The notes beneath the pieces were generated by a model, which worked only from the letters and a program-made list of their open reading frames with translations, was not told the DNA's origin and ran no database searches. The position numbers were made by a program, and so were the translations under genes. A stretch of DNA of 64,000 bases, taken from Xylaria sp. FL1777 (Eukaryota > Ascomycota > Sordariomycetes > Xylariales > Xylariaceae). Positions within the stretch are counted from its first letter, which is position 1. The number at the start of each line of letters is the position of its first letter. Location: positions 310,001 to 374,000 of the forward strand of contig MU400520.1 in the NCBI GenBank assembly GCA_022578965.1, given 5' to 3'. This document shows, piece after piece, positions 1 through 41,935 of this stretch.

Positions 1-1737
1 TAGCTGACAACCCAACAACGTTTGTACGGCAGATTGATATCTCTCACCCATCCGCCATCCGATATCAGGCAGCAGCTTGCTAGTCAAATAGTTGTACCAC
101 GAGGTGCGGTCAGCCATCTTCTGCCGCCTCTGATCTGAGACGGTGCTTGTTATAAGGTACCATCGCCCAATCTCACACAACACCACCCCAAGACTATATA
201 GATCAGTGCGCCGCGAAAACCCCTTATCAGCCGCTGGATGGTAGTAGTACTCTAGCTCGCTATTTTCTAGCGGACCCCGCGAGAGTGACTCGTCACCGGT
301 GGGCCGCGAGTATTGGAATCCTGTGATAAAAGGGTCTGTGACTTTTATGACTGCCTCCTGACCGAAACAATTTGCAAGGAAGAGGATGCTGCCGCTATGG
401 AACCCTTTATGTAACCACCCTGCGCTGTGAAGATTACTAAACGCTGTGGCTAGCTCGAATGCCAAGGTAAATCTATCACCTAGGGGGGGTATGGGAAAGG
501 ATTTGTCTCTAATCAAAGAACTAAGTGTGCGCGGGGGGTGAATGCGGAAATCCGTTGTGTATATTGGCCGAGATGGTTCAGCAGAACGGTGAAGCAGTGG
601 TGATGATAAACCAGTTTGCGGCGCACCAAATACATAACCGATACGCTGCACCCCGAACTCGACTTCGTGTTTAAGGTCGTCGAAGATGCCATAGCAGACT
701 GGTAGGCGGAGGGCCGCTGCAACAATCGGAGTTAGTTACCGCTATTTAGAGCATGATTTTGAGAGGGTTTCCGAAGCCTCTAGACATAGTCTTGCCTTAA
801 AAGGCAGTCTTGTGCTCTGAAAGTCGCTTAAACGAGGAGAAACTGTTATTGAGAATTGCTTACGGTCGCCAGCCTCCTTTAGTAGATAGCCTAGAGCCTT
901 TACCCGACGGACATATTCTGGTGCTGCTTTGCCGCTGCCAATGATGCTCCATTCAATCCATACTGTAATAGGCGTTTGGCCTGGCAATGTCAGATTGCCG
1001 AGAGATTCTGATCCTTTCCAAATTTGAAGTTCGCTGGTTGTTATTCCAATCCCAGGCGCATCTGACGGCTGGGCTGAACTAACTCGCATTAACTTGGCTT
1101 TGGCTGACATAACCAAAGTAGTACTGGCCTTAGCCTTAGGATCGTGTAAGCTTTGTAACATGCTGGTGTTTGTGATGTGATTGAGGCTCATTGAGGGTAG
1201 AGTTTTCTCTATCAAGTGAGACTCTGATGGACTGACAGTCAGGTGTTCGAGTTCGTCGAAGAGATTGCTAATTTTTGACACATTCTCCTCGAATTCGGCC
1301 TTTCCTTTAATCGTCCACAGGAACCTAGCCTTTGGTTTAACTCTTAATTTGGATAGAGTCGTTACAATATTGACTTGTGATTGTGGAGCGATGTTTGGGT
1401 TGACAAGGGGCATGGAGGGAAGCTCAACACCATGTTTTACCACTAGCTTTTGCAATTCGTCAAGCAACTGGGTAATCTGCGCAAGGATGCGAATCACGAG
1501 CTCTTGTATTTTTTCAGGTTTATCTTTCAATGCGCACATAGATGGGTCGTCAATGTTGTAAACCTGTCGCCAGAGCTCAAGACGGGTCTTTTGGGTGTGG
1601 TAACATAGGGCTAGAAAGCTGCAGTTTGACTTCTCATCGCTAAAATAGGATTCAATGAGCAAAGCTGTATCAAGGGAGCCTTTGAAAGCTGTTAAGGTAC
1701 TGCCGACTCCAAGTACAAGGCCTGCTGCTTCTGCCAT
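1..1737 (-). CDS. HeLo-domain pseudokinase (3' end beyond window), pair 1
   Basis: Two exons are visible: 1737-864 and 716-1, with intron 863-717 (GTAAGC donor, CAG acceptor, phase 1). They give at least 530 residues, still open at base 1. The start is the ATG at 1737, because the HeLo domain begins there with MAEAAGLVLGVG. Residues 1 to about 200 are HeLo (prion-inhibition and propagation family), a helical bundle that in HET-S type proteins inserts into membranes and kills the cell. The rest is a kinase fold without catalysis. The HRD position reads LHKGFHSGS, the DFG region reads ITGFQYSRP, while YYYHP and DLYSLGVVLCEIGRW persist. No amyloid motif is visible. It is divergent from the kinase-ankyrin gene at 2100. 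The family is seen in sequence; a cell-death role is known for HeLo relatives and inferred here. Confidence 0.85.
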
Positions 1738-2099
1738 TGTAGATAAATGTGCCTCAAGTAAAGAATCAAGACCTCCTCGTACTAGAGTGGGCGACCGAAC
1801 CAAATATGCGGATTAGGAGGGAAGTAGGTGGGCGTGCGTGTCCGTCCGAGGAGGCGTTTAATAAATTCTGCCTGAGCATGGGCTAATCATAGACGAGCTC
1901 TCTTACAACCTAGGTGGGGTAATATGCCAACCAGCAACAAGAGCAGACGGAAGCCCAAGGCATGGCACTGTTGGGCCTAAGTGTATAATTAGGCGGCAAG
2001 ACGGTTTTTTAGAGAAAAACCTAAAGACATACAAAAGTTGCACTATACCTACCTAGCTTTGAAATCACGGTTTGATGTTCTATCGATCGTGCCCCCATC
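1738..2099. promoter_or_regulatory. Shared divergent promoter region, pair 1
   Basis: These 362 bp lie between the start codons of the HeLo-pseudokinase (minus) and the kinase-ankyrin gene (plus), so both upstream regions share them. There is a copy of the ACCTAGGT palindrome at 1908-1915. No clear TATA box and no motif shared with the second pair's promoter was seen. That it is a bidirectional promoter is inferred from gene layout only. Confidence 0.5.
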
Positions 2100-5000
2100 A
2101 TGTCATCTTCGACGCCGCTCACGCGCTCTGGGCGCTTATGGTCCACTACCCCTTCACTCCACACAAAAAGTATGAATGAGCCACGGAGGGCTCATTCACA
2201 AATCTTGAACGATACAGATTACTTACGATACCAACTCAACGGAGAATACTTCATGGATGTCGCACGTGTCGTTCATGATCACGGTCTACCGTCCTTTGGG
2301 CTACGCAAAAGGGACCCATGGGATCCGGAGTCAAAGGGCGCAACCATTCTCTTGGGTAGTGGAATGACATCTAGGGTGTCTCAGCATATTCTTTCGGATG
2401 ATGAGGCGGCGAAGACAAAGTCTGCGAAACTAATAGCATTGAAAAGATTCACTCCGACATCATCAGCTAGTGTAAAAAGCTCGACGGTATATGAAACGAT
2501 CATTAGGGAGATCCGATTACTTTGCCACCCACTGCTTTCTAGACATCCAAACATCGTGCGACTTTATGCCGCCGGTTGGACCAAAGGGGAGCGTTTTCCC
2601 GCACTAGTGATGGAGTGTGGCTCACACGGCTCGTTGGATTATTTGATTCGGAGTTCCTGGGCCGGCCTTAACGATACCCAGCTTCACCAAGTACGCCGGC
2701 ATCTGACTATTGATATTGCTGTGGGCCTCTACGCTATCCATGAAGCTGGATTTATTTACGGCGACCTCAAACCACACAATATTTTAGTTATGAGCCACCC
2801 GTGCGAAAGTCGCCGTGCGATTGCGAAGCTGACCGATTTTGGCGGGAGCTCGATAATTCCCGGTCAACGCGACGGGCAGCCAGTTCATTATACTCCTCTA
2901 GTAAGTATGATCTTTACACTACTGAAATTCACCCCCTAATACTGCAGATCTATCTATGTCCTTGACACGTCTGTGACTTTATTCGAAATATAATTCTGAC
3001 AAAACCAATAAAGTGGTGTGCCCCTGAGGTTATCAATAAAGACCCAGACGTCGACTGGAAGAAAAACGACATATATTCGTATGGGCTGGTAGTCGGTAGC
3101 CTCTGGGCTTGTCGGCGGACGGAAGGCGGTTTTGGAGCCGGACGACTAGAAAATGGAAGTTCCTGCTTCTTGGCCAATTTTATTTTCTCCGCGATGACTA
3201 AAGAAGAAGAAATGGACGTGCTGTGGATAGCAAAAAGTGAGGTAGATGAGGCGGCAAATCTCAACTCTCTCCTCAGGAGGGTGCTCGAGGTTTCTATCAC
3301 CGATGAGACCGACAGGGCGCACATTCTCCGAGTTCTAACGCCAACACTGCAGCCTCACTTTTGGCTTCGACCTGATGCGGAGAGCCTATGCCAGAGTTTG
3401 CGGATATTAGCTCTACAGGTCAAGCGTCAAATTTGGTATGGGAACTTTTCTTCATCCTCTATAAGGGTTTATCCTCTGAAAATTTTACTAATCTTATTTG
3501 CAGGGAAGAGATGCATATCGTACCAGAGACCGGGAATAAAAACCCCCATGCACAACAGATGCACCCTGAATTGCGGTCTGATGAGCAACTTTTCGATTTT
3601 CCATTTATCTTCGTGGAGCAATTAACTTTTGCCCTCGATGATACAACAGTTGCAGAGAGGGACTCGCTTTCTCACCCCCTGCTAGATCTCCCAGAAACTC
3701 TTGCGGACGACATCGATCCACAGCAATACTTCATAGCTATGGCTAATAGCATCAAGCAGTTTTTGCTGAGGGGTTACCAGGGCAAGAGCACAAGCGAAAA
3801 AAATGCTATTCTCGCTAGTCACCGCAGAAGAGCAATGCTGTCATGGTTCGTCACAGTTTTCCACGCCGGGGTCCTCTCAGATTGGGTAAATTTCGCAAAC
3901 ACAATGTACACCACTGCCATAGCGGGACAGGGCGAGGCCATGCTTTCTGCAAGCTTATTCTTTAATAACACTGATATGGAAGCACGGATCCCAATCCGCT
4001 CCTATCTCTCGCTGTTTGCTCTGTCGCAGTCTAACCATGCCGCGCAAATTCTTCACAGTCGCTGGCCGGCCCACTATGACATGGTTCAGCAACTCATTAA
4101 ACTGAAGCCCTCGGCGTTTGAACAATCCGGGTTCGGAAAGAAACCAAATTCAAATTTCTTCATGACCAACACTTTGGTACTCTATAGAGATGAGCCAATG
4201 CTGACAACACCGCTTAGCCTTAGGCGAATCTTAGATACAGGGCTTGTTAAAGAGATCCGTGGGATTTTAGATGGCACTGCTCTCACTGTTGACTTTGAGG
4301 AATCTGCATCAATGTTGCTTCATGGGCTCTCCAACTTCCCAGATGCTGAAGCTGTCGCACTGGTTCCAAAAGCATACTGCAAAGGGGGTAAGTTGTCTTT
4401 CTTGGGCATGGTCAAATCCCCTATAGCCTCTACCGGCTTCTTCTCAGATAAGGGGGAGATGCTATCACCTATCTCCGCTGCTATCAGGCGAGGGAAAACA
4501 CAACTCGCTCTTGCGATTTTCTGTCTACACATAGAGAATGAAGAGCCTATTGTAGACTTCGACCGAGCTATCAGACTAAGTTGTCTGTACTTAAACTATG
4601 ATGTTATATCGCCGCTTCTGGGTCTTTATAACGACAGCCCTTACATGTGTCTTAGAAGCCCACAAACTGGGCGGGATACGAAGGCTTTGCTATTAGAGCT
4701 TTTACTCGACATTGTGGTGACGTCCGCGGAATTGTTTACGCTAGAACTAGAGCGGCGCTTGTTGTATGGCACCGGCTATCAAATTGCCTACAAGACTACC
4801 CTTGAGGTTCTTGTCGATGAAGGAGCTATTCCAGATTCTGTCGACTTACACCTGCTGAGAGAGGCATTGAAACGCGATGACTTAATTGCCGTTAAAATAC
4901 TTATTGAGCATTGGGAAAGGAGCAACAAGGATGCGGTTTACTATCTTCGGAATCTGGGGAGTGATCATCAAGATGCCGCCGCCGTTGGTTTCCGTGGATC

Positions 5001-7212
5001 GGCGCTGACCATGTGTATGAAGTTCGGCTCTATAATGGTTTTCGAGTATCTAATGCAAAGATTTCCATTGCTGACCCTGCATTCTCCTGGAGATTATGGG
5101 CCCATCCCAATTCTTCACACCGCGTGTATGCTGAACAACGGAACCCCTTTTGTCGAAACTCTCCTTCGATGCGGGGCCGATGCTACATCGTATGATAGAC
5201 ATGGCATCAACGCCATATATGCGGCACTCTCAAACGGGCAGTTAAAATCAGCTGACGCCATTGCGAGCCATTGCGAGCCTGAGAAACTCAGGGAACTATT
5301 GGGCCGAGACGCTAGTGGATGGTCCGTTTCCTCCCATCTTCTTAGCGCATGGCGACATGATAGGAGTCTTGACATGATCGAAAGTTTCCAGTGGCTCGCT
5401 CGAAAAGATGCCATTCATAAAATTGGTCCACTGGGCTACCCTTCCTGGACAGCTATCCTTTTACCGTCAAGGCCATTTTGGGCTGCTCACCAACGCCTGG
5501 ACGTTCAGCTGCTCAGGCTGGTTCTCGGCGCTGGCGAGCTCAACCAAAAGATGATAGATAACGAAATATGGGGTTGCAGGACCTTATTGAGTCTTGCTGC
5601 AATGAACGGACATATTGAAGTTGTAAGACTACTTCTCGATAGCGGTGCTGACCCCAATATTCGGGTACCCTTCAAGCCTTCGGATTTCCCGAAAGATTTT
5701 CCGTCTTATCTCGTAGATAAAAAATTCACTGCACTTGATATGGTAAATCTTGCGCTTAGTGGAGTGAGGATTCCACAAGAAGTTGATCGTGGTGGTTTCA
5801 TAGAACTTCAGATGTGGGTCGAAGACCTTGAAGGGATCAGGAGCCTGCTAAGAGCACGGGGAGCGCAAAGTATCCTCTACGACATATTCGTGGGAGACTC
5901 TAGCGAGCTAGAAGTGAACCACGATAGCATCATCGACAAGATGTTTGTACAAAGAAACGGGGTTATAAGGGGTAGTTGGCCAGAGCCTTTAGTCGAAACA
6001 CCAGTCTCCCAAGTCGTAGAGACGGGAGAGGAAGCATCAGCACGTAAAGCTGGAGCACGTGAGATCTTCTATAATATCCGACGATCCGACTACCAAATGA
6101 AACTGAGAGAAGAGCGGCAGGAAATCGAAAAGAAGGTAACGCCAACAGACTACTTGCAATCGATCAAGCGGCACGCCTTGATCAAAAGACACGCGTGGCG
6201 TCTACCAACTGGATGGCATTGCCATATGATAAGGGCAGATGAAAGCCAACCTAGTGGCTATGATATCCTGTACTGGAATAGTACCTCAGGCAAGACCACA
6301 TGTGAAAAGCCAGAGCTAATGAGGAAAGAACCGAAAGCTAGGCAGGAGGAGAATAGTGAAAAATTGATTGAAGAGGACATCTATGGCGCCACACCTATTA
6401 TGAAGCCTAAAACCCTGCCCCTGGAACAGGACATTGTTAGTCTAAGTCTTGATGACGCAAACTCAACTAAATCTAGACCAGCAATGCACCCGCCTCCTAG
6501 TGCTAAGCCCTTGTCTGGCTTCTCCCATGAAGAATCTATTCAGGCAATAACAGCTCATTCAAACGATCCTGACCTTGTCGCAGTAGTCCCACCTGGAATG
6601 GCTTACCAGCTTTCTCGCCACATGGAGCACTTAAAGCTTCCAGACAGTAGCACCACGCTCCATGCTTCAATAGCAGCGGATGATCTCGAGCTTGTTTCTA
6701 CCATTCTGGAACAAAACTCGATCCCGATTGATAGTGAGACCTACGGCGGATGGACTCCCCTACACGTCGCCGTGATAAACGGGAAACTTGATGCACTGGC
6801 GTTGCTGTTGGCGTATGGTGCGGATCCAAATCGGGTATCCCCACGAACAGGGCACCGGCCAATGCATATGAGCATCGTGCAAAGATACGCAGATGCGGCT
6901 TATCTGCTGGTCCAGGGTGGAGCGGATGTAAATGCGACGAATGTAGAGGGGTATACACCATTGCACCTTTGTGTTGCTGCAGGAGACAATACTGAGTGTC
7001 TCGAAGTCTTGCTCGAGAATGCAGCGGATGTGAATGCAGTCGGACCGCATGGTTCTGTTTTGAAAATGGCCGTGAGTTCGGGAGCCGAAAAGAGTGTGTC
7101 AATACTACTGAGCGCTGGGGCGCGTACGGATGAGAATGAAAGCTTTCTTCACGTTGCGGCAACACTCGGAAATACAAAAATCATGGAAGCACTATTGAAC
7201 AAAGGAATATGA
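2100..7212 (+). CDS. Protein kinase-ankyrin repeat protein with WW-like module, pair 1
   Basis: Three exons, 2100-2900, 3014-3435 and 3504-7212, join in frame to 1643 residues. The intron 1 acceptor is an unusual AAAG, chosen because it restores WCAPEV and sits behind a CTGAC branch site; the CAG at 2945-2947 leads to a stop. Residues about 80-400 are a Ser/Thr kinase with all key residues: LGSG loop at 85-88, K115 in ALKRF, E137, D222 and N227 in GDLKPHN, D246 in DFG, then the APE motif. Ankyrin repeats follow, clear near residue 1097 (RTLLSLAAMNGHIEVVRLLL) and from 1460 to the end. At about 1307-1345 is a WW-like module (LPTGW, YWN, TTCEKP) whose second Trp is Cys. No membrane segment was noticed. 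It is divergent from the HeLo-pseudokinase. I infer a sensor kinase; substrate unknown. Confidence 0.85.
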
Positions 7213-8236
7213 GACTATCTCATAATGATGAAATGTACAACTGTCATCAACACGCGCGTCTGACTATGGATATATCTCTGGATGATTGGATATAGAGCCA
7301 CAAGGTCTTGGAGTTGTATGTAGGCCCTCGACTAACAATAAGCATGAAGCTGAAGGACTGCAATTATATGAAGTTAGAATGTGTATAAATATGAGACAGA
7401 ACCATGGCCCTTGAGACCCCTCGTAGATCATTATTTAATATATGACTAAGATCCAAGCCCTCATTAAAAGCCCTTGTCACGCGTGAAGGACCTGGCTTCA
7501 CCCGAGCCTGCCACATTATTTTCTCTAGTAATACACTTGCTGCCTTAAAAGTGCATCCCACAGTGATGATCGAAAAAGGGGGGGAGAGGACAAGAAAAGC
7601 GGATATATAGAAAGCCTCATATAAGTAATTGAATATTTCAACACTACATTGCCAAGTTTTCTGCAGCTTAAGAAGACTACCGCGGAGCAGAACCATAAAT
7701 GACGGTGAGGTGGGATATGGTCTGTGGAATTACTCCATAGGCCTGGGAGAATTTATTTGGGTTAAGTCAAGCCTCCCTCAATTTCGTCAACGCCCAATAG
7801 TATGCGCCCGGTTATCGGGAGTCACGCTTGTTTTATGACTGTGCGAGGCATTGCAAGTGCCGGGCTCAACTGACGAAGGGGATGCAAATCATGAGTCGGA
7901 CACAAGAAAGGCATCTGCGGGGGATCTTATCAATTCACCATAGGTGAATATAGTGCACGGTACATATTTATGAAATGCCATGATCGTCAGATACGAACCC
8001 ATGCGAGTTATTTAGTAATAGCAGACCTAGGCCGCTCTCTCTTCATTAAGTACCATCCCTTCGCGCTCGGCTCTTCGATTTGGAGGAAATACAGTTTTTC
8101 CGCGTGTATTGCCTCTTCAGACGTTTTAAAGCGAGTCGGGTGGCCCCATGGAGCCATCACTGAACTTCATCGGGTAACCTCTTGTATACTTTTGCTTGCC
8201 GTTTGAAAAATAGCCCGATTCGGCCCCGCTGCAAAG
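7213..8236. other. Intergenic; holds a probable solo LTR
   Basis: No gene seen. The first part (7242-7481) looks like an unmutated but diverged solo LTR of the chromovirus family described below. The remainder, to the DUF1996 start, has only short open frames that look random. Confidence 0.5.
7242..7481 (+). repeat. Probable solo LTR, same family as the chromovirus
   Basis: From about 7397 the sequence aligns with the 3' LTR end: ACCATGGCCCTTGAGACCCC, then CTAAGATCCAAGCCCT and the terminal CCCTTGTCAC. A plausible TGTC start lies at 7242, but the first half matches poorly and no target duplication is evident. It is not RIP-mutated. Confidence 0.5.
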
Positions 8237-9733
8237 ATGAAGACGATTTTCACAGTCGCTGGGCTTATTACGCTGGCTCAAGCCGGTCTCCGGTTTCCAT
8301 GCTCGACATTGACTGTACAGCGCCTTGACCCCGCCGGCGAACCTGGCCAGAATCCGTCTTCCCATGTTCATCACATCGTCGGTGGAAATGCATTTAATGT
8401 TACCATGACAGGTGATGTTGGCGCTCGCGCTACTTGCACCACCTGCCAGATGGCTGAAGACTTTTCTAATTACTGGACTGCTCACTTGGTGTGTCTTAAT
8501 TTTCCCACGCCTTCTCCTTTAGGGCCCTCGACTCGTGTAGATGACTGACACATTTTCTACATGTAGTATTTCAAACACCCGACCAATGGCTCCTACCATC
8601 GTGTGCAGCCCGTGCCAGTCCAGCCCTTGCTAGGGGGTTCAAATGGCGCCGAGGGAGGACTTACTGTATACTACACGCAGTTTGATCTCAGCAGGGACAA
8701 TCTTCAGCAACAACCCATCAAGAGCTTCCCACCAGTAATTCTACCACATCGTATCCTCTATTGTCTATATCACTAAGGTTTCCAGGGGTTTCGCATGACC
8801 GTGGGCACTCCCACGGCCACCTCACGTGCACACGTCGGGCTCAGCTACCAATGCATGACTGGAGGTAGCCGGGGTGCATTACAAGCTGATATGCCTAACA
8901 AGCCATGTTCAGGCGGCATCTTCACTACTCACCACTTTCCACCGTTAGTAAAGCATTTTCTACTGATTTCATTTTCACTTTAACTAATTTGGCTTAGATG
9001 CTGGGACGGCAAGAACCTTGACAGTCCAGACCATCAATCCCATATGTACAATACTGTCAATACGGATTACTTCAACAACGCCCCAGCATGTCCGGCATCT
9101 CATCCTGTCCGTGTACCACAAGTTACCTTCGAAACAACCTGGTATGTACAAAGGAGACCCCCATATCTTCTCACTGCTCTTGTTCCTCTCTTTATTCGCT
9201 TCTATTTTCCCTTTTCCTCCTTTGCGGCAGTGTTTCAGGAGGACAACTGTTATCAAGGAAGTTTCAAAGCCAAGAAGAAAGTTCAAAAAATAGCGATGTT
9301 TCTCCTAGAATATGAAATTACTAATCTTAAATTTCGACAGGGACACCACCAAGTTTAACAGCATGTGGCCTTCGGGTGCTCCTAATCCATTTGTATGGAG
9401 CTTCGAAGGCAAGTCATCCTCCCTATCCTGAGGTACAGAGAGAGGCATTTGCCATGACTGACATAATTTTAGGGAACTCATACGGAACCCACGCCGACTA
9501 CATGTTCGGCTGGAAAGGCGATGCCCTACAACGTGCCATGGATAAGCCTGAGTGTTTTTACGACGGCTGCGGTTCTATCCAGAAGCAGAGCATGGCCATC
9601 GCCAATCAATGCCAAGTCAAGGACATGGTCAATGAACAGACTGATGGATGTAAGGTTTCCAGACTAGCTAATCTCCCCATACAAACGCTAACCGGTTTCA
9701 GGGCTCCCAAAGCTTCCTGGTATGGCTATGTAA
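8237..9733 (+). CDS. Secreted DUF1996 protein
   Basis: Seven exons (8237-8488, 8567-8734, 8786-8943, 8998-9141, 9341-9408, 9473-9649, 9702-9733) give 332 residues. The N-terminus MKTIFTVAGLITLAQA is a signal peptide with a likely cut after Ala16. The mature part begins LRFPCSTLTVQRLDP and holds the family signature HVHHIVGGNAFN, then CTTCQMAEDFSNYW, conserved cysteines, and the typical end GWLPKLPGMAM. DUF1996 proteins are extracellular or cell-wall proteins of unknown biochemical function in fungi. Intron 5 (9409-9472) uses a GC donor (GCAAGT) with AG acceptor; no GT alternative preserves the frame. No partner gene is evident nearby. Confidence 0.88.
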
Positions 9734-11090
9734 GCACAGTATGGCCAAGTTGGTAAAGGGTTGTGCATTGGGGCGCACAATGGTAACTTTTTCTCGACGT
9801 CAGAAAAAGCTCCTCTGCTCGACCCTGCAAGGATTACAGATACAGGGCAGATTGATTCATTACCCGAAATTATTTATTTACATCACCAAGCATAAGTAGT
9901 ACTGTGAATGGAATTGTGCTATAAGATAACTACATCCCACCTACATTGCTGGGGTTGCATGATCACGTGATTACAAGAAAAAGGGCTCCTTAGGCGCCGC
10001 TTACTTCGCATATAGTTGGTTTCAATGTACTGAAAAATGGATGTATCTCTGTTTTAAAATTATTACCATAGTAGGTAGGTATCTGTAAGGTGTTAAGTGT
10101 ATATCTTACTGCAGGTCGAGTTTAAAAATTTATTTAATAGGCAAATTAGCGTAATTCTGAGCACTTCTAAGCCACAACTTAGCCATACAGACCTGGTTAT
10201 AAGGGTCTGTATGAAAGGGTTCGTTCGGCTAGGTCTGTATAGAAGACTTATAATATTGATGTTAAGTTTTTTGTCTTTATTACTACGTAATGTAGAAAAC
10301 CTCCGGCCATAACAACATGTTTAAAGCCGTATACCACCCGCAACAACCCCAACCCTATTGGCTGGCTGCAGCGAGCAGTAGTAGTTTTCATGGTATCAAT
10401 GCATACCGATATAAGGAGTGCTGTAGTTATTCTCATACGCCTGTTCCATCACGTTCCATCAAAATCGCCGAACACGACTTGAACACCTCCTCTTCTTCGG
10501 CCGGCGTCTGATTTGCTGGTGCGAGCGCCGGTGGCTTGCTGAGGTCGCGGCGTGTGACCCCGGAGGGCGTGAGCACGGGTTCAGCGACCTGGAAGCATTC
10601 TGGTCTTCATTTTTTGGGGAGACGCTGCAATTCGATACGATGCTTTTCGTCCTGTAGCCAGATAATTGCCTCCCCAAGAAGAGAGTTGGAAATGGGAGGG
10701 GACGACGATACCTGCAATGACAGAGCTACCTGTACTATATATGTGCGCACATCACTACCCGATATGAGCAGCTCGCGTCACTTATCTGCGCCTGCTTCTC
10801 AATTCTAATTTACTATATGTGCAATGTGATACCACAATCTACTGTACGGGCCGCGCAAAGCTACCAGCAACCGAGCTGCAAGCCGACCTTGAACTTGGCG
10901 TGAGGGTTGGTTCTACCTAGGTGGATAGCTTTTGTTTTTAACGCCTTTCTAGCCTCTAATAGCCAGCTCGCCAACGTAGTAGCCTCTGAGGGATATGTTC
11001 TCTGGGGTATGGTTTCTTTCACTGCCAAGCCTCCGTAGAACACTAGCCGGAATAGGAAGGAAGGGGCATTTCTTTGTTGGGCGACAAAAT
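9734..11090. other. Intergenic region with one perfect hairpin
   Basis: No gene is supported. There is a 10-bp inverted repeat at 10184-10193 and 10204-10213 (arm CATACAGACC, 10-base loop), with a third partial copy of the arm near 10230, and one ACCTAGGT at 10915-10922. Open frames here have no recognisable domain. Confidence 0.5.
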
Positions 11091-14000
11091 TCAGCGTGGG
11101 AGAATCCCGGCGCCCTCGGGGATACGTGGTGTCTCTATCCATTGTGATACTCGTTGAACGAATCTTGTTCCTGGCCCATAAAGTGCCTGGGAAGAACTAG
11201 CTATACCCTCAACATCACTTTGATGCGCCATCGTGCCAAGTCCAGGTAATAGTATGGACTTTACGAGCCGTTTATCAATAGGATGTCCGTCGGGCCAAGG
11301 AAAATTCAAACAAACGCTGACGACGTTAATAAAGACCACTTCAATCGCAATCTTAATCACTATAGGTAACGGCATTATAAGAGATTGTGGAGGACGCACA
11401 ACAATTGGGATCAAAACAATAACTGACAAAATAAGAGGGGAAAGGGAAAGTTGTATCGCAGCCATGGTTCCTAGCCCACTGTGAATATTAGGTTGGGAGG
11501 ATAGTAACTTGTAACAGTTCATTGCGTCTGCTTGAGAATTCGAGACAAAAGCCTCAGTGGGCTTCTCTTGCGCACCAAGGATAATAGTTGCCATATCTAA
11601 GGGTGTTATCCAAAGGCGATTCGCCCACCAGCCATTCGGACTATAGCCCAGGTCTATCAAAGCTTCAAGGGCTAGAGGATCGGAATGTAGTACGGCAATC
11701 TTCACGAGATTATATGGGGGCCAATAAGGTCTTTTCCTCATTGTGTGTAGCCCACCTGGGCACTGGCTTTTGTGACCCTGTACCAAGAGCTTCCAGATCT
11801 CTCTGTGGGTCAACGCTGACGCGGAATCTCTTGATTCCTTGCCAATTGCCGCGAAACAGAGCATGAGTAAGTATGTGTCGACGTGGCTTTGTCGAATTGC
11901 TCTGGCACAGAGAAGGTTAAGCAAAAACAAGGCTTGCGAGCGTGCTGATCGATTTACACCGGATTGATGTGGTTTAAGCAAACGTTTCCTACTTTTGAGT
12001 ATCGTGTCATACTTCAATAACCATTCGATTACTGGGAATTTAGACGACGATTCCCATACCCGCTGGTGGATCGAGACAATCAGATACTGCAATGGCTTGA
12101 GGCTCCGATGAAATCCACACAGAGAGAAGAGAATCGCAAGTATGAGGTTCATATTGGTTGGTCGGGGGTGATAGATTTTAGCATTGGGTTCTGCGCCATT
12201 CTGAATCATCAACGCAGCCATATCGTCCCACTGCTGAGAGGCGGCTGTGAGCAACGGAAGCCCAGGCGTGGATGTACCAAGCCAACAATGTTCAAGAAAA
12301 TTTCGAGGGGCCCAGCCATGGGCAGTGTCTATATTTTCTGCATTAAGAAGGCCGAGTAGAGTATTGCTGTGGAATATGAGTTTCATACAGATAACGTTTC
12401 TAGGAAGATATATTATTTGTAACACTTACGCAAAACACAGGTCACGGTGTTGAGATCCCGCAATACTATTCATATATAACAGTGCATAATTCAGCCTCCC
12501 ATCTACGACGAGCAGATTGATCCGACGTAGGGCTTGTATACCGAACCTGTTTCTCGTGGGTAATATCTCATATGAAATTTCTCGACAGCCTGCGAAATCC
12601 CTGCCATCTGGTTCTGGGTAATTAGGATTTGGCTGTATAGACTCATAGGCTAGGTAGAGATGGAGACGAGGAAAGTAAGATGTTACTGCGTCTTCTATCG
12701 GTAAGTGATGTCGACATTTGTAGAACCAAATAAAATCTACGGGGAAATAATCCCCCATCCTCAATGCCTCGGAAGTTCGAGCCTGTAGAAGTAAGCGGAA
12801 GATGTCGTGTTTTCCAGCTGTGATGGATGCGAGGATTGCGTCGACGAGGCCCTGCTTCTGTCTATCGTTAGTGCAACTGGATAATATTGATTGCGAGGTG
12901 GATGTGCCCTCATCAATTGTTAAGCTCTCCAAGATCCGCGGATTGTCGGTGTGTTCAACGGCGCCAAAGGGTGAGAATTGATCCGAGTTTGTGCAAGATT
13001 GGAGCAAGATAGAGACGACTTCTGCATGCCCCCTTTCTATGGCAAAGAAAAGAGCATTACGCTGCTTTCCGCATTTCGTCGTTTGAAAGTTAATACCAAG
13101 TGCCTGTAGCGCGTCGAAACTATGGCCCAGACTAGTCGAATAGTCGCGCCCATGGTACATGCATCGCCAGAAAGCTTCTGGGAAATCAAAGCCGTATGAT
13201 GGGTTGTTGGATACACACCCATTGATCCACATTGAAGCAAGAGTGAAGGTGGCGTTGTGCATCCGAAGTCTTATTTTCGGGAGCCTCAATGATTCCAAAA
13301 CGTCTGGAAAGAATTGCGGAATCATCCTTAACACTCGATAGTTGTTTAGACGGCAGGCCCACCCGATTATTTTATAACAGGTAGATTTCCATAGTAACAC
13401 CTCCCTTGCGGTATTGGTGGAATAATATTGCTTTCTCAAATTTATCAGTACAGTCGCTGGAGTAAGTGCATTCATAGTAATCGCCCGTAGAATAGGGCAA
13501 CCGGGGACTTTGAAATGGACGTCGAAGACCGCGTTGTTTGTGATTTTTTCTGCTGACTCTTGGGTGATGTCGGCGCCATGCTCGACGAGCAAAGAAGCCA
13601 AAGAGTCCACATGCTCGGCTTCAATAGTGTAGAGATAGTGTAAGGCGTTCTCGCCAGAAGCATTCACTAAGGTCGCACTAGCACCTAGGGCAATCAGCTT
13701 CTTAGCAATCGCACACCACCCTGAACGACATGCATAGATTAGAGCTGTGTCCCCATTCCGATCTTGAATATTTAGATCGGTCGACGATAGCACATCGTTC
13801 GTCGATAAGAAGTCGAGGATATTGTCCAATCCCTGCATGACAATCCAATGTAAGAATGTCTGGCCGTGCTCGTTTCGAGATGTGATATAGAAACTCGACT
13901 CGAGTGTCATCATATTGTTATAATCGTATAGGAGCGCGCCAAAATCGTAAGCATTATCTTCTGGATATATTGAAGTAGACTTTCGATAGGCCTGTAGTGC

Positions 14001-15882
14001 ATTTGGATAACTTGTCGACTGGCGGTCTTTTAAGCTCTCAATCGCAGTCCAGGACCCTTTGGCACCAGCGGTCACAAGCCAGGCGTCGATGTGATTTGGA
14101 TCAACAGTATCTCCTAGACCGAACGCTTCGAGAAGGCGAAAGCTTACCGCCTGGGCGGTCAATTCCCCTTCACGCGCTGCGAGGCATAGCCAGTCTCGAG
14201 CCTCGGTCCTGTCTAATTCCACACCAAACCCAGCTGCATAGCATATACAAAGTTCAAAAGCCGCTGCAGCAATTCTTACTTTTGTCTGATTTCTTTCTGT
14301 ATTTTTTGCGGTTTTGGTCAAGGTCGCTACGATCTGGCGTTTCAAAACGTTGCTGAGACCGTTTAACGCTTGGTAGGGTATATCAATCTGCTATATGTGT
14401 GAGTTCGTCTGATATCCTGATAATAGATATGATATCATGACTCACGAGATCCGGGTCCCATGGTTTCGGCGTGTCGAATACCTCACTCAGTTGACGTGAA
14501 GCGAGATCTTCGTTCGATGTTTCAAGGATACATGAACTCTTATCCAATCGACTTGATTATGGTTATCTTCTGTGCAAGAAGAACCGTTGGAAAATGACTT
14601 ACTTGTCTCCATTTTGAGCCCCTAGCACACTGTCAAGGTGACGCCTTTCCGGCTGCAAACTGAGAGTGTCATTAAGCCAAAGTTCCACCAGCAAGATGTC
14701 ACCGGATGTCAAGGTGAGATCTGTACTCATTATATTGTAGAACTCGTCAAGAATGGTAGCCTTGAGGGAATCTTGTTCTTTGAGCCGATTCAGCTCAAGA
14801 CTCCTTTCCTCAGGAATGCCGGCACCAACTTTTTCCAAAATTCGATCAATGATATCAACCCCTGTCACTGTAGAGCCTACCACGATTCCGAAATAGTAAA
14901 TGTCGGTCTTCATCAATAAGTCCGTCGTCAGTTCCTTCTTCCACTCAGGCGCTGCATACTTGGTAGTGCCCCCTATAAGTCCAGTTGAACGACCGGTATT
15001 GAACTGGGAATGGCTAAAGTCCGCGACCTTAGCAATCCATTTGGAATGGATATCCTTAAACATGAGGATATTAGCAAGCTTGACGTCTCCATGGATGATG
15101 CCACATTTGTGAAGAGCTGCGAGGCCACGAGCAATATCACGACAAATATCTCGCTTAGTAGCGAATAAAACATCTGATTCACTGTAGAGAGTTAGAGCAA
15201 ATGTCATCAATAGTTTAAGATGATACTTAAGGTGATGTACAAGGCAGTGTCAATACCTTCTCAAGAAGCCATCTAGTGTACACTCTGCTTGTTCGAGAAC
15301 TAATCCCATTTCCGGACATGCATCTGGCTGCGTCTTTATCAGGTCTATTTTCGAAAAGAAAACATACTTGAATGAATTTACACAGGGTTCATAGCTCCAT
15401 GCCACGCCTAAGATATCAACCACGTTTTTGTGTTGTCTAATATCAGGTATGGTCAGAACTTGCAGCTCTCGTAACATGCCATGTGCCGCAAGTTGAGATA
15501 GTTTATTATTATTATGGACAGTTCCATCTTTTTCGAATTTCAGAGCAGGTGATCTCTTCATAACGACTCTTTGTTGTAGCGGCCCAACTTGAGATCTCTC
15601 TCCTGTTTTCGATTCGTTCTTGCGGAAGGACACGTGGAAAATAGCGCCACTATCGATTGACTCCATTTCCCAGTCGGCAAGCACCTCCATAGGTTGTGCA
15701 TTTTGTCTATATAGAATTGATACGTAGGATAGAATGTCAATGAAGTCGGGGAAACGGTTGCGTCCATTTTGGGTGTGACGAAGAAAGGTGGTGGATGTTC
15801 GCGTGGTCGATCGAGGGTTCATCGGACTGATTCGACCAAAGTCGCGATCTTCGAGCACACTGGCAATAGTATTATTCGCCAT
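11091..15882 (-). CDS. Protein kinase-Sel1-ankyrin protein with hydrophobic C-terminal hairpin, pair 2
   Basis: Five exons (15882-15257, 15181-14603, 14551-14446, 14390-12430, 12366-11091) join in frame to 1515 residues; each boundary keeps the reading phase. The start ATG at 15882 gives MANNTIASVL. The kinase spans residues about 75-380 and keeps K109, E139, D241 and N246 (HGDVKLANIL), D263 (DFS for DFG) and AAPEW; the glycine loop is degenerate. A Sel1-like repeat lies at about 481-517 (CYAAGFGVELDRTEARDWL), and ankyrin repeats run from about 610 (GQTFLHWIVMQGL, GDTALIYACRSG). Residues about 1393-1414 and 1420-1444 are two strongly hydrophobic stretches, so the C-terminus may sit in a membrane. 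It is divergent from the HeLo-pseudokinase at 16409. The architecture parallels the gene at 2100. I infer a sensor kinase; not shown. Confidence 0.85.
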
Positions 15883-16408
15883 GGTAGAACTGGTATTCTC
15901 AAGAAGTGTAAGCTAGAATATGAGAGTAAGGGTTCGATTAGGCACCAGTGGTTTCGTGAGGGTAAGTCGGGCTGAAACGGCTATTCGAGCCTCGCCGCAG
16001 GATCCGCGACATATAAGGACCAGAAGCAGCGACGACAGGACGGTGGTGGGGTTCAGTTAAATCCCTTTTCGTTGATCCAACGCTTGTGTCAGGCATACTA
16101 CAAAAAGTGCACATTTGCACAGCCTGCATGTGAGGTGTAGTAACTACTGGCTGGAGTGGAAGGTATAAATAATTTCTATGCAGGAAGGGCAGAATTGACC
16201 GAAGGAATTGCCTGGGATTGGCTACACCATGTTGGAGTCAAGGCACTTTCAATCGACTGCGTCTGCGATATGGCTGGCGATTGGCACGCGAAAATAGCTG
16301 GCTGGGAGAGCTGTAGGCGAACTAAGTTTTAGCTTATAAGGATCACATATCGCCATAGAACTTGGGACTGGTGATAGGACTGTTACCCCATATGGTAGTC
16401 AAATCAAC
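15883..16408. promoter_or_regulatory. Shared divergent promoter region, pair 2
   Basis: These 526 bp separate the two start codons of the second kinase-ankyrin/HeLo-pseudokinase pair. A TATA-like GGTATAAATAA lies near 16160. No motif obviously shared with the 1738-2099 region was found by eye. Joint regulation is inferred from layout. Confidence 0.45.
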
Positions 16409-18372
16409 ATGGAAGCTATTGGCCTAGTCGCCAGTGTCATTAGCATTGGTCAACTAGCAAAAGGTGTGATCGATCTTTACGAAATCGTATCGGACGTGAA
16501 ACATGCCTGGAAGGAACTTGAAGAAATGCAGGGACTTTTTCGCTTGGAGCGCATGCGGTTTTTTCTCTGGTGCGATTATGTTGGTCTGACCACGCTTACA
16601 CTCCTGAAGCAGAACAGTGGAGAGGAGCCAACGTGGAACGAATTCCTGAGCTCCCGAACCTCAGCTGTATTAAGACAAGAGTGGACTTTGGAAATAATCG
16701 GCACGACACTTAAAAATATCACATGCAACTTCAAGGACGTTGACAAGCTACTTGCAAACTACACAACTAAAAGAGCCCCATCAATCCTCACTCGATTGAC
16801 CGCCAGGCTTAACCAATCGGATGACAGGATACAATTAGCGCTTGCCCATCTTGACCTCTCTAAGGACCGCACCCATTGTGATACTAGCAAAGGCACTTTG
16901 AGAGTGATTAAAAGGTTACCGTGGAGCTTCGTCGATAAAAAGAAATTCCGTACGTTTATAAGCAACTTGCAAGATTTCAACAATGGGCTCGATGCGATTC
17001 TTTCCGGCATTGAGAAGCTGGAATTAAAACGACAGAACGAGCTGCTAGCGACAAGCAGCCCCTTCGGATCGATCATCATGGCTTTGCGGTCAGAAGGGCA
17101 ACGGCCAAACATAGATTCGCGTATCTTAGGATCTTTGCCGCAGCTCCTGGAGTTAAAGGAGAGAGCGTTGATCCTCGATGATGTGAACAACCGGGCTCCT
17201 CTAAATACTATGATTTTCAAGCCGGGATCATATTCAGCCACGCAGGGGCTTCATTTGGTCTTATCCGATATTGAGTTTCAAGAGGCGCAAGACCTTGATC
17301 TGGGCCGACGACTTATAGCTAAGCATGGAGGTCTTCCTTGCTTGGTTGAGTGGAAGTATTATTCACGACGAATCACACCTGACAAGCTAGCGTACATTCG
17401 ACAAAGAACGAGTATGTTAGTATTGCAGTTGCAACAATCGGCGGAAACCCCTGGTTTCAGCATTCTTAACTGCGTCGGTCACTTCGAAGATGATGCTAAT
17501 TTTCGGATCGGCATCGTCTATAAACCCGCCGAACATACGCAATCGATTGAAATAAAGGACCTTGTATCTACCATGCTGGCAGATTGGCGGAGAAGAACGC
17601 TCAGGGACCTTGAATGTCGATTAGCAGTTGCCCGCGCTCTTGTCATGACATTCTTCCGTCTGCATCAAATCAATTGGCTCCACAAGTCCTTTCGTAGCGA
17701 GAACGTCCTGCTTATCAAAAAGAGTGGAAGCGACCAGGATGAGCTTGGTCGCCCTTATATCTGCGGCTTTGACTTCTCTAGGCCGGATAGTAAGTAGTTT
17801 TCTGAGTGGTATTCATTTATCTCAGCCGAGGTTTGATAGAGTTGTTATAGTCTCCATGCTATTAAGAGTTCTTTAGAAGAAAAGCGGCTAATCTAAGTTG
17901 TGCAGTGCCGTATGAACTAAGTGAAAGTATGCCCACACAAATTCGACATTTGAAGTCCGCCCTCGAAGACAGCTTGTACCGTCATCCCGACTTGAGACAA
18001 GAGTCTAGTATTCTCCAAGGCAGCAGAAAAGACGGAGTGGTGCGATACCATAAGTCGTATGATACGTACAGTCTAGGGGTAGTCCTAGTAGAGATTGCGC
18101 AGTGGTGCCCTGCCAAAAAGCTAATCAAGAAAGGAGAATCTCCTATGGAATTCCACAGTAGGCTCCTAACTGACATAGTTCCGGAGCTGCGACATCTCAT
18201 GGGAAGAGCATATCATAATGTAGTAGTTAAATGCATTATGGGCCAATTCGGAGAAAGCCACGGGAGTGAGGGTGAGGAAAGCTCAAATGAAGATTATCAA
18301 AAGCGATCGGAAAAATGGATGAGATCGTTCTTGAAGGACGCTGTGGAAGTCTTCGAACGCCTGGTTCTCTAA
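16409..18372 (+). CDS. HeLo-domain pseudokinase, pair 2
   Basis: Exons 16409-17789 and 17906-18372 (phase 1 intron, GTAAGT donor and CAG acceptor) give 615 residues. The N-terminus MEAIGLVASVISIGQLAKGV and the following helices, with LRVIKRLPWSFVDKKKFRTF near residue 170, are the HeLo domain. From about residue 280 comes a kinase fold. CLVEWKYY carries the probable beta-3 lysine, but the catalytic loop is LHKSFRSENVLLI (no catalytic Asp), and the DFG region reads GFDFSRPD, followed by LYRHPDLRQE and YDTYSLGVVLVEIAQW. It is therefore a pseudokinase. The C-terminus is acidic and helical with no recognisable amyloid motif, so signalling by prion-type templating is not suggested. It is divergent from the kinase-Sel1-ankyrin gene. 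Proposed role, by analogy to MLKL: membrane-active effector. Confidence 0.88.
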
Positions 18373-35851: not shown

Positions 35852-39189
<3,338 letters not shown>

Positions 39190-39516: not shown

Positions 39517-41935
39517 CTAGACCAATACTATTTGATACCGCAAAACATTGTCACAAAAGCTATAGCCTCCTTTATCATACTCCCAAATCTTTATATCTGG
39601 GCATAGACCATGGTTTCGCCGTACGATGTTCACACCATCTACAGAACGAAATTGCAGAGCATGAGTCCAGAACATCTGCTGACTCTCGTTATGCAAAATA
39701 GAAAATGTTCCCAATCTCCGGAAAGCCCCCTCGTTACCATCATTGTCAAAATTAGACTGCAAGATTAAGCCATCGATAGATGAACATAGGCGTTCCCCGA
39801 CGAGACTTGTCGGCTCGGTTTGCGTAACTGTATAGACAGGCATCAGCCATACAGTATTCTTGCTCTCGGGATCGAATTCGTCCCAGATGTCCCATGTCAA
39901 TCTCGCCCAGAAGTGAGTGCTCCCGCTTTTTATAATTTCTGCCGGATCGACGTCTTCCATACCCATGGATTTAATTTGAAGAGTGCCGTTAAAGGTGCGG
40001 ATATAATCATCATCAGGAGGTCTTAAGTAAAACAAGTCAGTGGAGCTGGCCCCGGATTCATCAGTGCCCACACTCCTCGAATCTAAAGTAAAATGTTGCC
40101 AAATTCCGCTGGTGTCCGGAGTTTCCTTTCGCCATTTGTTCAGCTCCTTGATATTTTGGCGACTCGGGAACCAAATCGATACGAGGTAGCAACAGATTTG
40201 GAGCTTTGCTTGGCTGATCAACCCAGTCCTCTCCGCGACCGAGTCGCCGCGATCTACGCCAAGAATTTCGCATAGAGCTTTCTCTCGTAGGAATTCACGG
40301 TTCATTCCCCTTCCTGTCATCGGATTTTCAACCGCATCCCATTGCGGGAGCATATTGATGGGTCCATCAAGGGAGGCCCAGGACCAGGATGGCGCAATCG
40401 CTACCTGAGGTCGTGATGTTTGCCCAATACTCGTAGGTGATGATGAAGGAATCATTGAAGGGTGTGATTTGTGCATAGGTGTCCACACCAGCTGGCTCGG
40501 CATGTTCTTCATAAAGAGCCCAGCCACATAGGTCCATCCACACACTTCTTGGATCCGAAGGCCGACGCCGTGAATCGCAATAAGCCGATCGGATGGTTTC
40601 GTAATTCCGGTTGAGGTGTATGTCCTAATAATTGGCCGCCAAAGGTCGCTCAATGCCCAACCTGGGATTGTGTCCTCCTGCAAGTTCTGTGCGGATGAAT
40701 CGATCTCTCGTCGAAAAAGGCGTGAGTGTGGAGCAAGGAGCGTCTGCATTCCATTCGGGAAACGTTCGCATGCGGTTAGACAGTTGCACTCCCAAGCAAT
40801 TTGGTCGCTATCGTAGTGTAAAACTCGAGGTGACAAGAATCGCTCCTGGACCACCCAAGCTCTACAGTTTAGGGGTTCACGTTCAAAACGGTCCCACCAT
40901 ACGCCAGCGTTGGTTAGATACAGCTTTGACGGTGCATCTGGGGGAAAGTTTTTGAATTCAAGCCTGACTGCAGCGAGAGCATTAGGGTTACGAAGCTGAA
41001 AGCATCCACCGTTACTATCGGATGCAGAGGTTGCTGCAATAGTACAAGTAGAGTTTCCGTATATCCTATGCATCTGAGTTGATTCTGCCGCCCAGTCTTG
41101 GTCTGAATCCTGGACAATACATAAGCAGTCGATCCAGATATAATGAATACCAAGCTCAAGAGCTATTCTCGCGGCATCGCGAAACGTTTTCCCAAGAGAG
41201 CTTGTAGGAACTGCAATTTTCATTGCCACGATTGTCTTTGTAGTCAATTGATGTGGCATTACTGGTCCCCAACAATGACTTAAGGTCGAATACTCAACAT
41301 TGGCGGGGATCTCTGGCCCCTCAACAAGTCGGAGAGTCTGGCAGCCAGTTTCAATTTTCAACAACCTCGTTGGGGTGAAGCCCTCTCTTCCGACATGGCA
41401 CAAGTGATCTGTCAAACAGGTCTTGAGCCATCTTCTTGCCTGATTAAAACATAATTCAGATCCTGTGTTTGGATCCATGGGTACATCCTGGATGAGGTGC
41501 TCGATTTCTACCCTAATATTAGTTTACTATTTTTCATCTATAAACTTGAATGAACGCACCTTTTGGTTCCCGCAAACGGTATCTTAGAGGCGTGGCATTG
41601 AGGCCGCAAAGAAGACCAATGGAGTCGGGGTAAAAGAAATTATCACTTTGAGTAAGAAAGATCTTTGCTCCTGGACCCATAAGATCCTCATAACCTCGGA
41701 TGAGATTCAAATCAGCCTCGAAGATCGCGCAAACCCGACAACCTTGAGACGCAAATAACTTGATCTCTTCAATTTTTCGATTGAACCCATTTATACCAAT
41801 CTCCCAATGGCGAGGATCATCTAAATAGAGAAGCTTCCGACAGACTGCGCAAAGTCCGTTCCTATGTTTAGGAAAGGTGAAACGCAGCAGCAGTTGGCTG
41901 CCCGCCGTTTTTATTTTCTCTCGCAGTCCGTCCAT
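39517..41935 (-). CDS. HET-domain (heterokaryon incompatibility) protein
   Basis: Exons 41935-41560 and 41507-39517 (52-bp intron; the acceptor GTAG, not the earlier TTAG, keeps the frame) give 788 residues. The N-terminal part has CxxC pairs (LCAVCRK, CRVCAIF). The HET domain follows: YSTLSHCWG at 198-206, YIWIDCLCIVQD at 249-260 and RAWVVQERFLSPR at 342-354, the three conserved blocks of the family. HET domains are TIR-related and trigger death when incompatible hyphae fuse. The remaining 400 residues have no recognised domain. No adjacent partner gene is obvious, but the window also carries two HeLo genes, so allorecognition-type genes are abundant here. Confidence 0.9.

Follow-up and report, generated by a model that had tools for sequence, protein, structure and literature searches.

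The DNA analysed here, called the window throughout, is a stretch of 64,000 nucleotides from the Sordariomycete Xylaria sp. FL1777 (contig C15:310001-374000 in a genome of 58.7 Mb and 588 contigs). It contains two head-to-head gene pairs, A/B (pair 1) and C/D (pair 2), in each of which a kinase-ankyrin gene is encoded divergently to a HeLo-pseudokinase gene. The four gene models were spliced by hand. Gene A (HeLo-pseudokinase 1, minus strand, 558 aa) has exon 1 at 1737-864 and exon 2 running from 716 past the window start, with the final 87 bases beyond the window. Its start is separated by 362 bp (1738..2099) from that of gene B (kinase-ankyrin 1, plus strand, 2100..7212; exons 2100-2900, 3014-3435 and 3504-7212), which encodes 1643 aa. 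Pair 2 consists of gene C (kinase-ankyrin 2, minus strand, 11091..15882; exons 15882-15257, 15181-14603, 14551-14446, 14387-12430 and 12366-11091; 1514 aa) and gene D (HeLo-pseudokinase 2, plus strand, 16409..18372; exons 16409-17789 and 17906-18372; 615 aa), with a start-to-start gap of 526 bp (15883..16408). Comparison with deposited proteins covered two of the four models: the C model (F5Y12DRAFT_148456) and the D model were each identical (100%) over the full length to a Xylaria sp. FL1777 protein.

Pfam analysis placed a HeLo domain (PF14479, cut-off 23.2 bits) at the N terminus of both A (51 bits) and D (85.1 bits); in the genome profile search the domain mapped to 1189..1722 of A (C15:311189-311722, minus strand, 53.7 bits) and 16421..17020 of D (C15:326421-327020, plus strand, 87.8 bits). 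The C-terminal halves matched DUF7580 (PF24476) at 22.2 bits in A and 19.8 bits in D, both under the cut-off of 27, and that of A also gave a weak protein kinase match; DUF7580 was precomputed on five of the 14 proteins (P0001-P0014) of the D-family alignment. B contains Pkinase (PF00069, 94.1 bits) and Ank_2 (132.9 bits) domains, and C contains Pkinase (60.3 bits) together with ankyrin repeats. Catalytic residues were read by eye from the alignment. B and C retain the β3 Lys, the αC Glu, the catalytic Asp, the Asn and the DFG/DFS Asp, which is the full catalytic set. A and D lack both the catalytic Asp (HKG/HKS) and the DFG Asp (GFQ/GFD), and A additionally lacks the β3 Lys and the Asn. The layout of A and D is therefore that of MLKL, a helical domain of predicted killer type followed by a pseudokinase that lacks catalytic residues. 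An earlier note, made from the letters of the window, had described two such divergent pairs, with kinases keeping the Lys, Glu, catalytic Asp, Asn and metal-binding Asp and HeLo partners without the catalytic Asp; gene models, Pfam and alignment agree with it on each of these points. A WW domain suspected by eye in B, near the C-terminal ankyrin block (window ~6190-6320, plus strand), had no Pfam match at E<=0.1 and was dropped.

C further carries a hydrophobic C-terminal stretch (11295..11474, minus strand, aa 1388-1447, KD19 up to 2.47), a predicted membrane anchor. Several such predicted anchors are common to C, the kinase partner of a third HeLo-pseudokinase gene (C204, see below) and the C relatives of Ophiobolus and Xylographa soralifera; similar C-termini occur in the models P0018 and P0019. 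The feature is absent from B, from the partners of C110, C134 and C135 and from P0017 and P0020, which are shorter models.

We then asked how often the arrangement recurs. Queries for the genome search were HeLo and DUF7580, along with three each of the kinases and the HeLo-pseudokinases, and the neighbourhoods of the matches were read. The search turned up seven genes that combine HeLo with the pseudokinase: A, D, C110, C134, C135, C204 and C84. The HeLo domain exceeds the Pfam cut-off in C110, C134 and C204, scores 29.1 in C84 and, at 22.0, falls just under 23.2 in C135. The HeLo+pseudokinase-like product of C84 (C84:174371-177142, minus strand, L034) has a long extension at its C terminus. 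A divergent kinase gene adjoins six of the seven (A, D, C110, C204, C135 and C134), with start-to-start gaps of 362, 526, 601, 643, 723 and ~737 bp, the last measured to the opening of the HeLo open reading frame (ORF). Ankyrin repeats are clear in five of these six kinase partners. Introns interrupt the C134 kinase; the C-lobe reaches 20.2 bits, below the cut-off, and the exons bearing GRGAYG, HRDIKPGN and DFG are readable by eye. The further pairs elsewhere in the genome rule out a one-off arrangement. With at least 135 kinase matches in the genome (123 of 243 candidates scored) and uniform placement, the probability that four of the five non-window genes have a kinase within 5 kb is 1.4e-6, or 1.6e-5 if 250 kinases are assumed; counting only the three neighbours present in the kinase list (C110, C135 and C204), it is 1.2e-4 and 7e-4, respectively. 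The divergent pairing exceeds chance. The earlier note had made its proposal hang on enrichment of the divergent pair, and inside the FL1777 genome it survived, six of seven genes being paired. Of nine HeLo matches, two were left uncounted as fragments that gave no pseudokinase match: C102 (one internal stop) and C11 (an 87-aa frame). The DUF7580 matches at C3:247406 and C27:421756 and the weaker pseudokinase matches at C102:22983 and C162:73681 lay outside the reading of neighbourhoods, and at the second C319 match (13631-14311) the reading was confined to ORFs.

Pair 2 also has relatives in other species. In a set of 5.8 billion proteins (~8,000 candidates scored for each query), D had 14 other relatives at E<=0.001 and C had 11, four of them strong (E below 1e-140). 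In Xylaria telfairii, the C relative and the D relative each lie on a contig of 9,429 bases, and in the Dothideomycete Ophiobolus disseminans each lies on a contig of 1,010,802 bases. Equal contig size within one species was read as the same contig, gene order and distance being outside the data. Both families are present in the lichen genus Xylographa, in different species.

Fungal HeLo effectors, a protein type known for killing fungal cells, usually work with NOD-like receptors (NLRs) through amyloid motifs, and neither was found in the pairs for the domains and motifs tested, in line with the earlier note. Pfam detected no HET-s prion domain (PF11558) in A or D and no NACHT or NB-ARC match in B or C; NACHT and NB-ARC were likewise missing from the 13 ORFs scanned among the 22 other window ORFs (at least 130 aa, from position 7,300 on). 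An RHIM-like core of the pattern [IV][QN][IVL]G was absent from the 12 pair proteins, some of which are incomplete ORF models. Elsewhere in the genome, two HeLo genes are intact but lack this pseudokinase, and NLR domains accompany both. At C8:478780-479898, a HeLo gene carrying the HET-s prion domain is divergent to an NB-ARC-TPR gene (pair C8:478780-482606, L010 and L011), and at C145 a NACHT-ankyrin ORF lies downstream of a HeLo ORF and shares its strand. At three loci, C18, C30 and C319 (L032, L033 and L030), DUF7580 ORFs are followed directly by S8 protease (subtilase) ORFs in the same orientation; proteases of this kind have been tied to fungal gasdermins (PMC12881547, section 20). These arrangements hint that the pseudokinase may serve as a receiver module set on different effectors.

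Three FL1777 genes encode single chains that contain both an active-type kinase and this pseudokinase (C8:290324-293291, C3:324023-327210 and C63:7284-10185). With the C8 fusion as query, 186 proteins were found at E<=0.001; the 120 of them that were listed come from what we take, by name, to be Xylariales, Sordariales, Botryosphaeriales, Pleosporales and Chaetothyriales, plus lichen fungi. We aligned 55 of the 120, chosen for rank and named species and including P0036 and P0137, which have a precomputed HeLo label. At E<=0.1, Pkinase was matched in all 55, DUF7580 in 49 and HeLo in 21, a HeLo rate that is not unbiased because of how the sample was picked and because of the two labelled members. 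Among ten fusions viewed singly, six have HeLo, always between the kinase and the pseudokinase (three above the Pfam cut-off), and four have none. The kinase half keeps the HxD Asp, the Asn and the DFG Asp in 55/55 fusions and the β3 Lys in 42 of the 43 that are ungapped at that position; the DFG Asp of the pseudokinase half is lost in 55/55. The fused pseudokinase aligns with that of D at E 5.6e-61 in hhalign. A structure model of the fusion (predicted local distance difference test, pLDDT, 86; predicted template modelling score, pTM, 0.72) is helical in its middle residues 442-640, and structure searches with the whole model returned rows filled by kinases. At the level of sequence, the single-chain fusions lend independent support to a putative kinase-pseudokinase coupling. 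Divergent to the C8 fusion gene lies a kinase fragment (L028:1-793, C8:289001-289793, minus strand), with HGDLKPHN readable by eye and a score of 19.8 bits, below the cut-off.

The alignments also point to a possible target of such a kinase. One position of the pseudokinase activation segment, between a GF-x-x-S-R motif and Y-x-HP, is Thr in 41 and Ser in 14 of the 55 fusions; the matching position is Ser or Thr in 13 of 14 proteins of the D alignment and in five of the six paired genes of FL1777. In the window it corresponds to Ser466 of D (codon 17920..17922, plus strand) and Ser437 of A (codon 280..282, minus strand). We infer that this conserved residue may be a phospho-acceptor. MLKL is activated via phosphorylation of a pseudokinase loop (PMC12881547, section 18).

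We propose that each pair comprises a kinase sensor and that its phosphorylation of the HeLo partner's dead kinase domain would release HeLo killing, a reading that we hold to be evenly poised between right and wrong. The kinase-ankyrin protein would be the sensor, its ankyrin array presumably binding a trigger; in pair 2 the hydrophobic C-terminus might anchor it in the membrane. It would phosphorylate the pseudokinase of the divergently encoded partner, the switch probably being the activation-segment Ser/Thr (Ser466 of D, Ser437 of A), in the segment where RIPK3 phosphorylates MLKL. Phosphorylation would free the HeLo bundle, which would insert its N-terminal helix in the manner of HET-S and permeabilise the membrane of the fungus itself. 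The kinase would thus fill the role held for HET-S by an NLR and an amyloid motif. A wider version can be put forward tentatively: filamentous fungi may run an amyloid-free, kinase-wired counterpart of necroptosis, in which a repeat-bearing kinase phosphorylates one activation-segment Ser/Thr of a HeLo-pseudokinase. The system would take two forms, divergent gene pairs and single kinase-HeLo-like-pseudokinase chains, the latter across Pezizomycotina, and the receiver domain of the effector, prion motif or pseudokinase, would decide between an NLR and a kinase sensor. This is the less probable of the two statements.

A number of observations weigh against phosphorylation of a HeLo-pseudokinase by a linked kinase-ankyrin sensor. 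C84 has no kinase gene within the surrounding 7 kb, nor any near it among the kinase matches listed, and the ankyrin matches of the C135 partner are marginal only. C135 itself lacks Ser/Thr at the aligned column, with a Ser one place off. The Ser inside GF-x-x-S-R is equally conserved (54 Ser and one Thr in the 55 fusions, 12 of 14 in the D alignment), so that conservation of the candidate switch may be structural. As to the fusions, 20 of 55 retain the catalytic-loop Asp in the pseudokinase half, so not all fused pseudokinases are dead by that mark. The middle segment matches the D HeLo weakly (hhalign over 30 columns, probability 14%, E 0.002); since the HeLo-like segment is both internal and weak, the fusions may not kill. 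Finally, divergence of kinases and of pseudokinases over the six FL1777 pairs is not significantly correlated (Mantel r 0.42, reached in 100 of 720 permutations), and co-evolution of the partners beyond orthology is therefore unsupported; the r of 0.895 obtained once the X. telfairii and Ophiobolus pairs are added reflects orthology.

Among other explanations, the kinase might act by binding, as a JAK- or RAF/KSR-like heterodimer with the pseudokinase that ligand binding to the ankyrin repeats separates or rearranges, freeing HeLo. Pseudokinases frequently serve as allosteric partners, and the fusions resemble tandem kinase-pseudokinase proteins; when the fusion model was compared by Foldseek, tandem chains of JAK and TYK2 took the three top rows. 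The superposition over the whole chain is poor, however (template modelling score ~0.2), so this match indicates the presence of two kinase folds only, and a pure scaffold would not need the catalytic Asp, Asn, DFG Asp and β3 Lys that the fusions keep. We consider this mode of action unlikely. Slightly more doubtful is a toxin-antidote or guard relationship, in which the kinase-ankyrin protein restrains HeLo, and killing is unleashed once an invader or hyphal fusion causes that protein to be lost or modified. Tight divergent linkage fits an antidote gene, HeLo proteins take part in incompatibility (PMC12881547, PMC10197012) and a HET-domain gene lies 21 kb away; yet the partner, a large protein with several domains and repeats, is built like a sensor, comparable to the protease and NLR sensors clustered with fungal death effectors, and its catalytic residues are conserved. 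That the linkage was merely inherited from one ancestral duplication with no joint function in cell death, the HeLo protein signalling or scaffolding in some other way, is improbable: fungal immune-type gene families do duplicate often and the six-pair Mantel test is not significant, but linkage and orientation are kept at identities of 20-33% among the kinases and 21-34% among the pseudokinases, the contigs match in another class, and kinase and pseudokinase also occur fused.

Returning to phosphorylation by a kinase sensor, we compared the pairs with known systems. RIPK3-MLKL likewise joins a kinase to a helical-bundle protein whose kinase domain is dead and has a Ser/Thr in the pseudokinase activation segment, and the HeLo and MLKL bundles are regarded as related (PMC12881547, sections 18 and 20); the fungal pairs differ in having no RHIM-like core, an ankyrin-bearing kinase and head-to-head genes. 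Searches of PDB sequences with the pseudokinase profile returned HET-s first, followed weakly by eIF2-alpha kinase 1, IRAK4 and LIMK1, with MLKL at E 0.95; the nearest PDB kinases were LRRK2 for B and IRAK4 for C, for which RIPK3 and RIPK1 were weaker matches. The structure model of D is of moderate quality (pLDDT 64, pTM 0.51, the HeLo half being weaker), and MLKL is not among the 50 Foldseek rows shown for it, while it is present in the VIA list. The RIPK-MLKL-like module of the earlier note therefore stands as far as the recurrent pairing, the pair-2 contigs in two species and the fusions carry it; the likeness probably lies in the way of working, and any kinship with the RIPK and MLKL families is supported no further than the shared fold class. 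RIPK4 and ANKK1 are animal kinase-ankyrin proteins with the same order of kinase and ankyrin repeats, in a different setting and with a different partner. The HET-S/NWD2 clusters of Podospora, and the C8 example in FL1777, are two-gene clusters that also set a HeLo effector gene beside a likely sensor gene; the present pairs have a C-terminal pseudokinase in place of the prion domain and a kinase-ankyrin protein in place of the NLR. In protease-clustered fungal gasdermins, a pore-former gene is found beside a repeat-bearing multidomain sensor, with activation by covalent modification (PMC12881547, section 20); here a kinase would stand for the protease and HeLo for the gasdermin. Plant MLKLs (e.g. 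Pm13) share the HeLo-type domain plus pseudokinase, and the tandem kinase proteins of plants (e.g. Pm24, Pm57) share the kinase-pseudokinase chain; they belong to another kingdom, and the available parts of the sources describe no divergent kinase-ankyrin partner gene for them.

An architecture of HeLo-type domain plus kinase/pseudokinase has been mentioned before in a published figure legend (PMC12881547, Fig. 6). The literature searched, whose coverage left out most subscription journals and bioRxiv, yielded neither the kinase-ankyrin partner nor the fusions. Within the same coverage, no paper combined 'prion-inhibition and propagation' with kinase and ankyrin and none dealt with DUF7580, and no kinase-ankyrin partner is named in the available portions of PMC12881547, PMC10197012, PMC9815663, PMC12258605 and PMC4986451. 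If the proposed mechanism is true, fungi possess, beside the known amyloid/NLR wiring, a working counterpart of the wiring from kinase to pseudokinase seen in necroptosis, and fungal HeLo-pseudokinases gain their missing upstream partner. Whether RIPK-MLKL logic has arisen once or repeatedly would then become a testable question.

The remainder of the window holds several other features. The HET-domain (heterokaryon incompatibility) gene, ~21 kb from pair 2, spans 39520-41523 on the minus strand (107 bits). Pieces of a LacZ-type beta-galactosidase gene (Glyco_hydro_2 and Bgal_small_N families) lie at 35855-39189 on the same strand. Between 22000 and 30000 there is a very AT-rich block, with 14-16% GC over 24-30 kb, which is flanked by normal gene regions and looks like a mutated repeat island.

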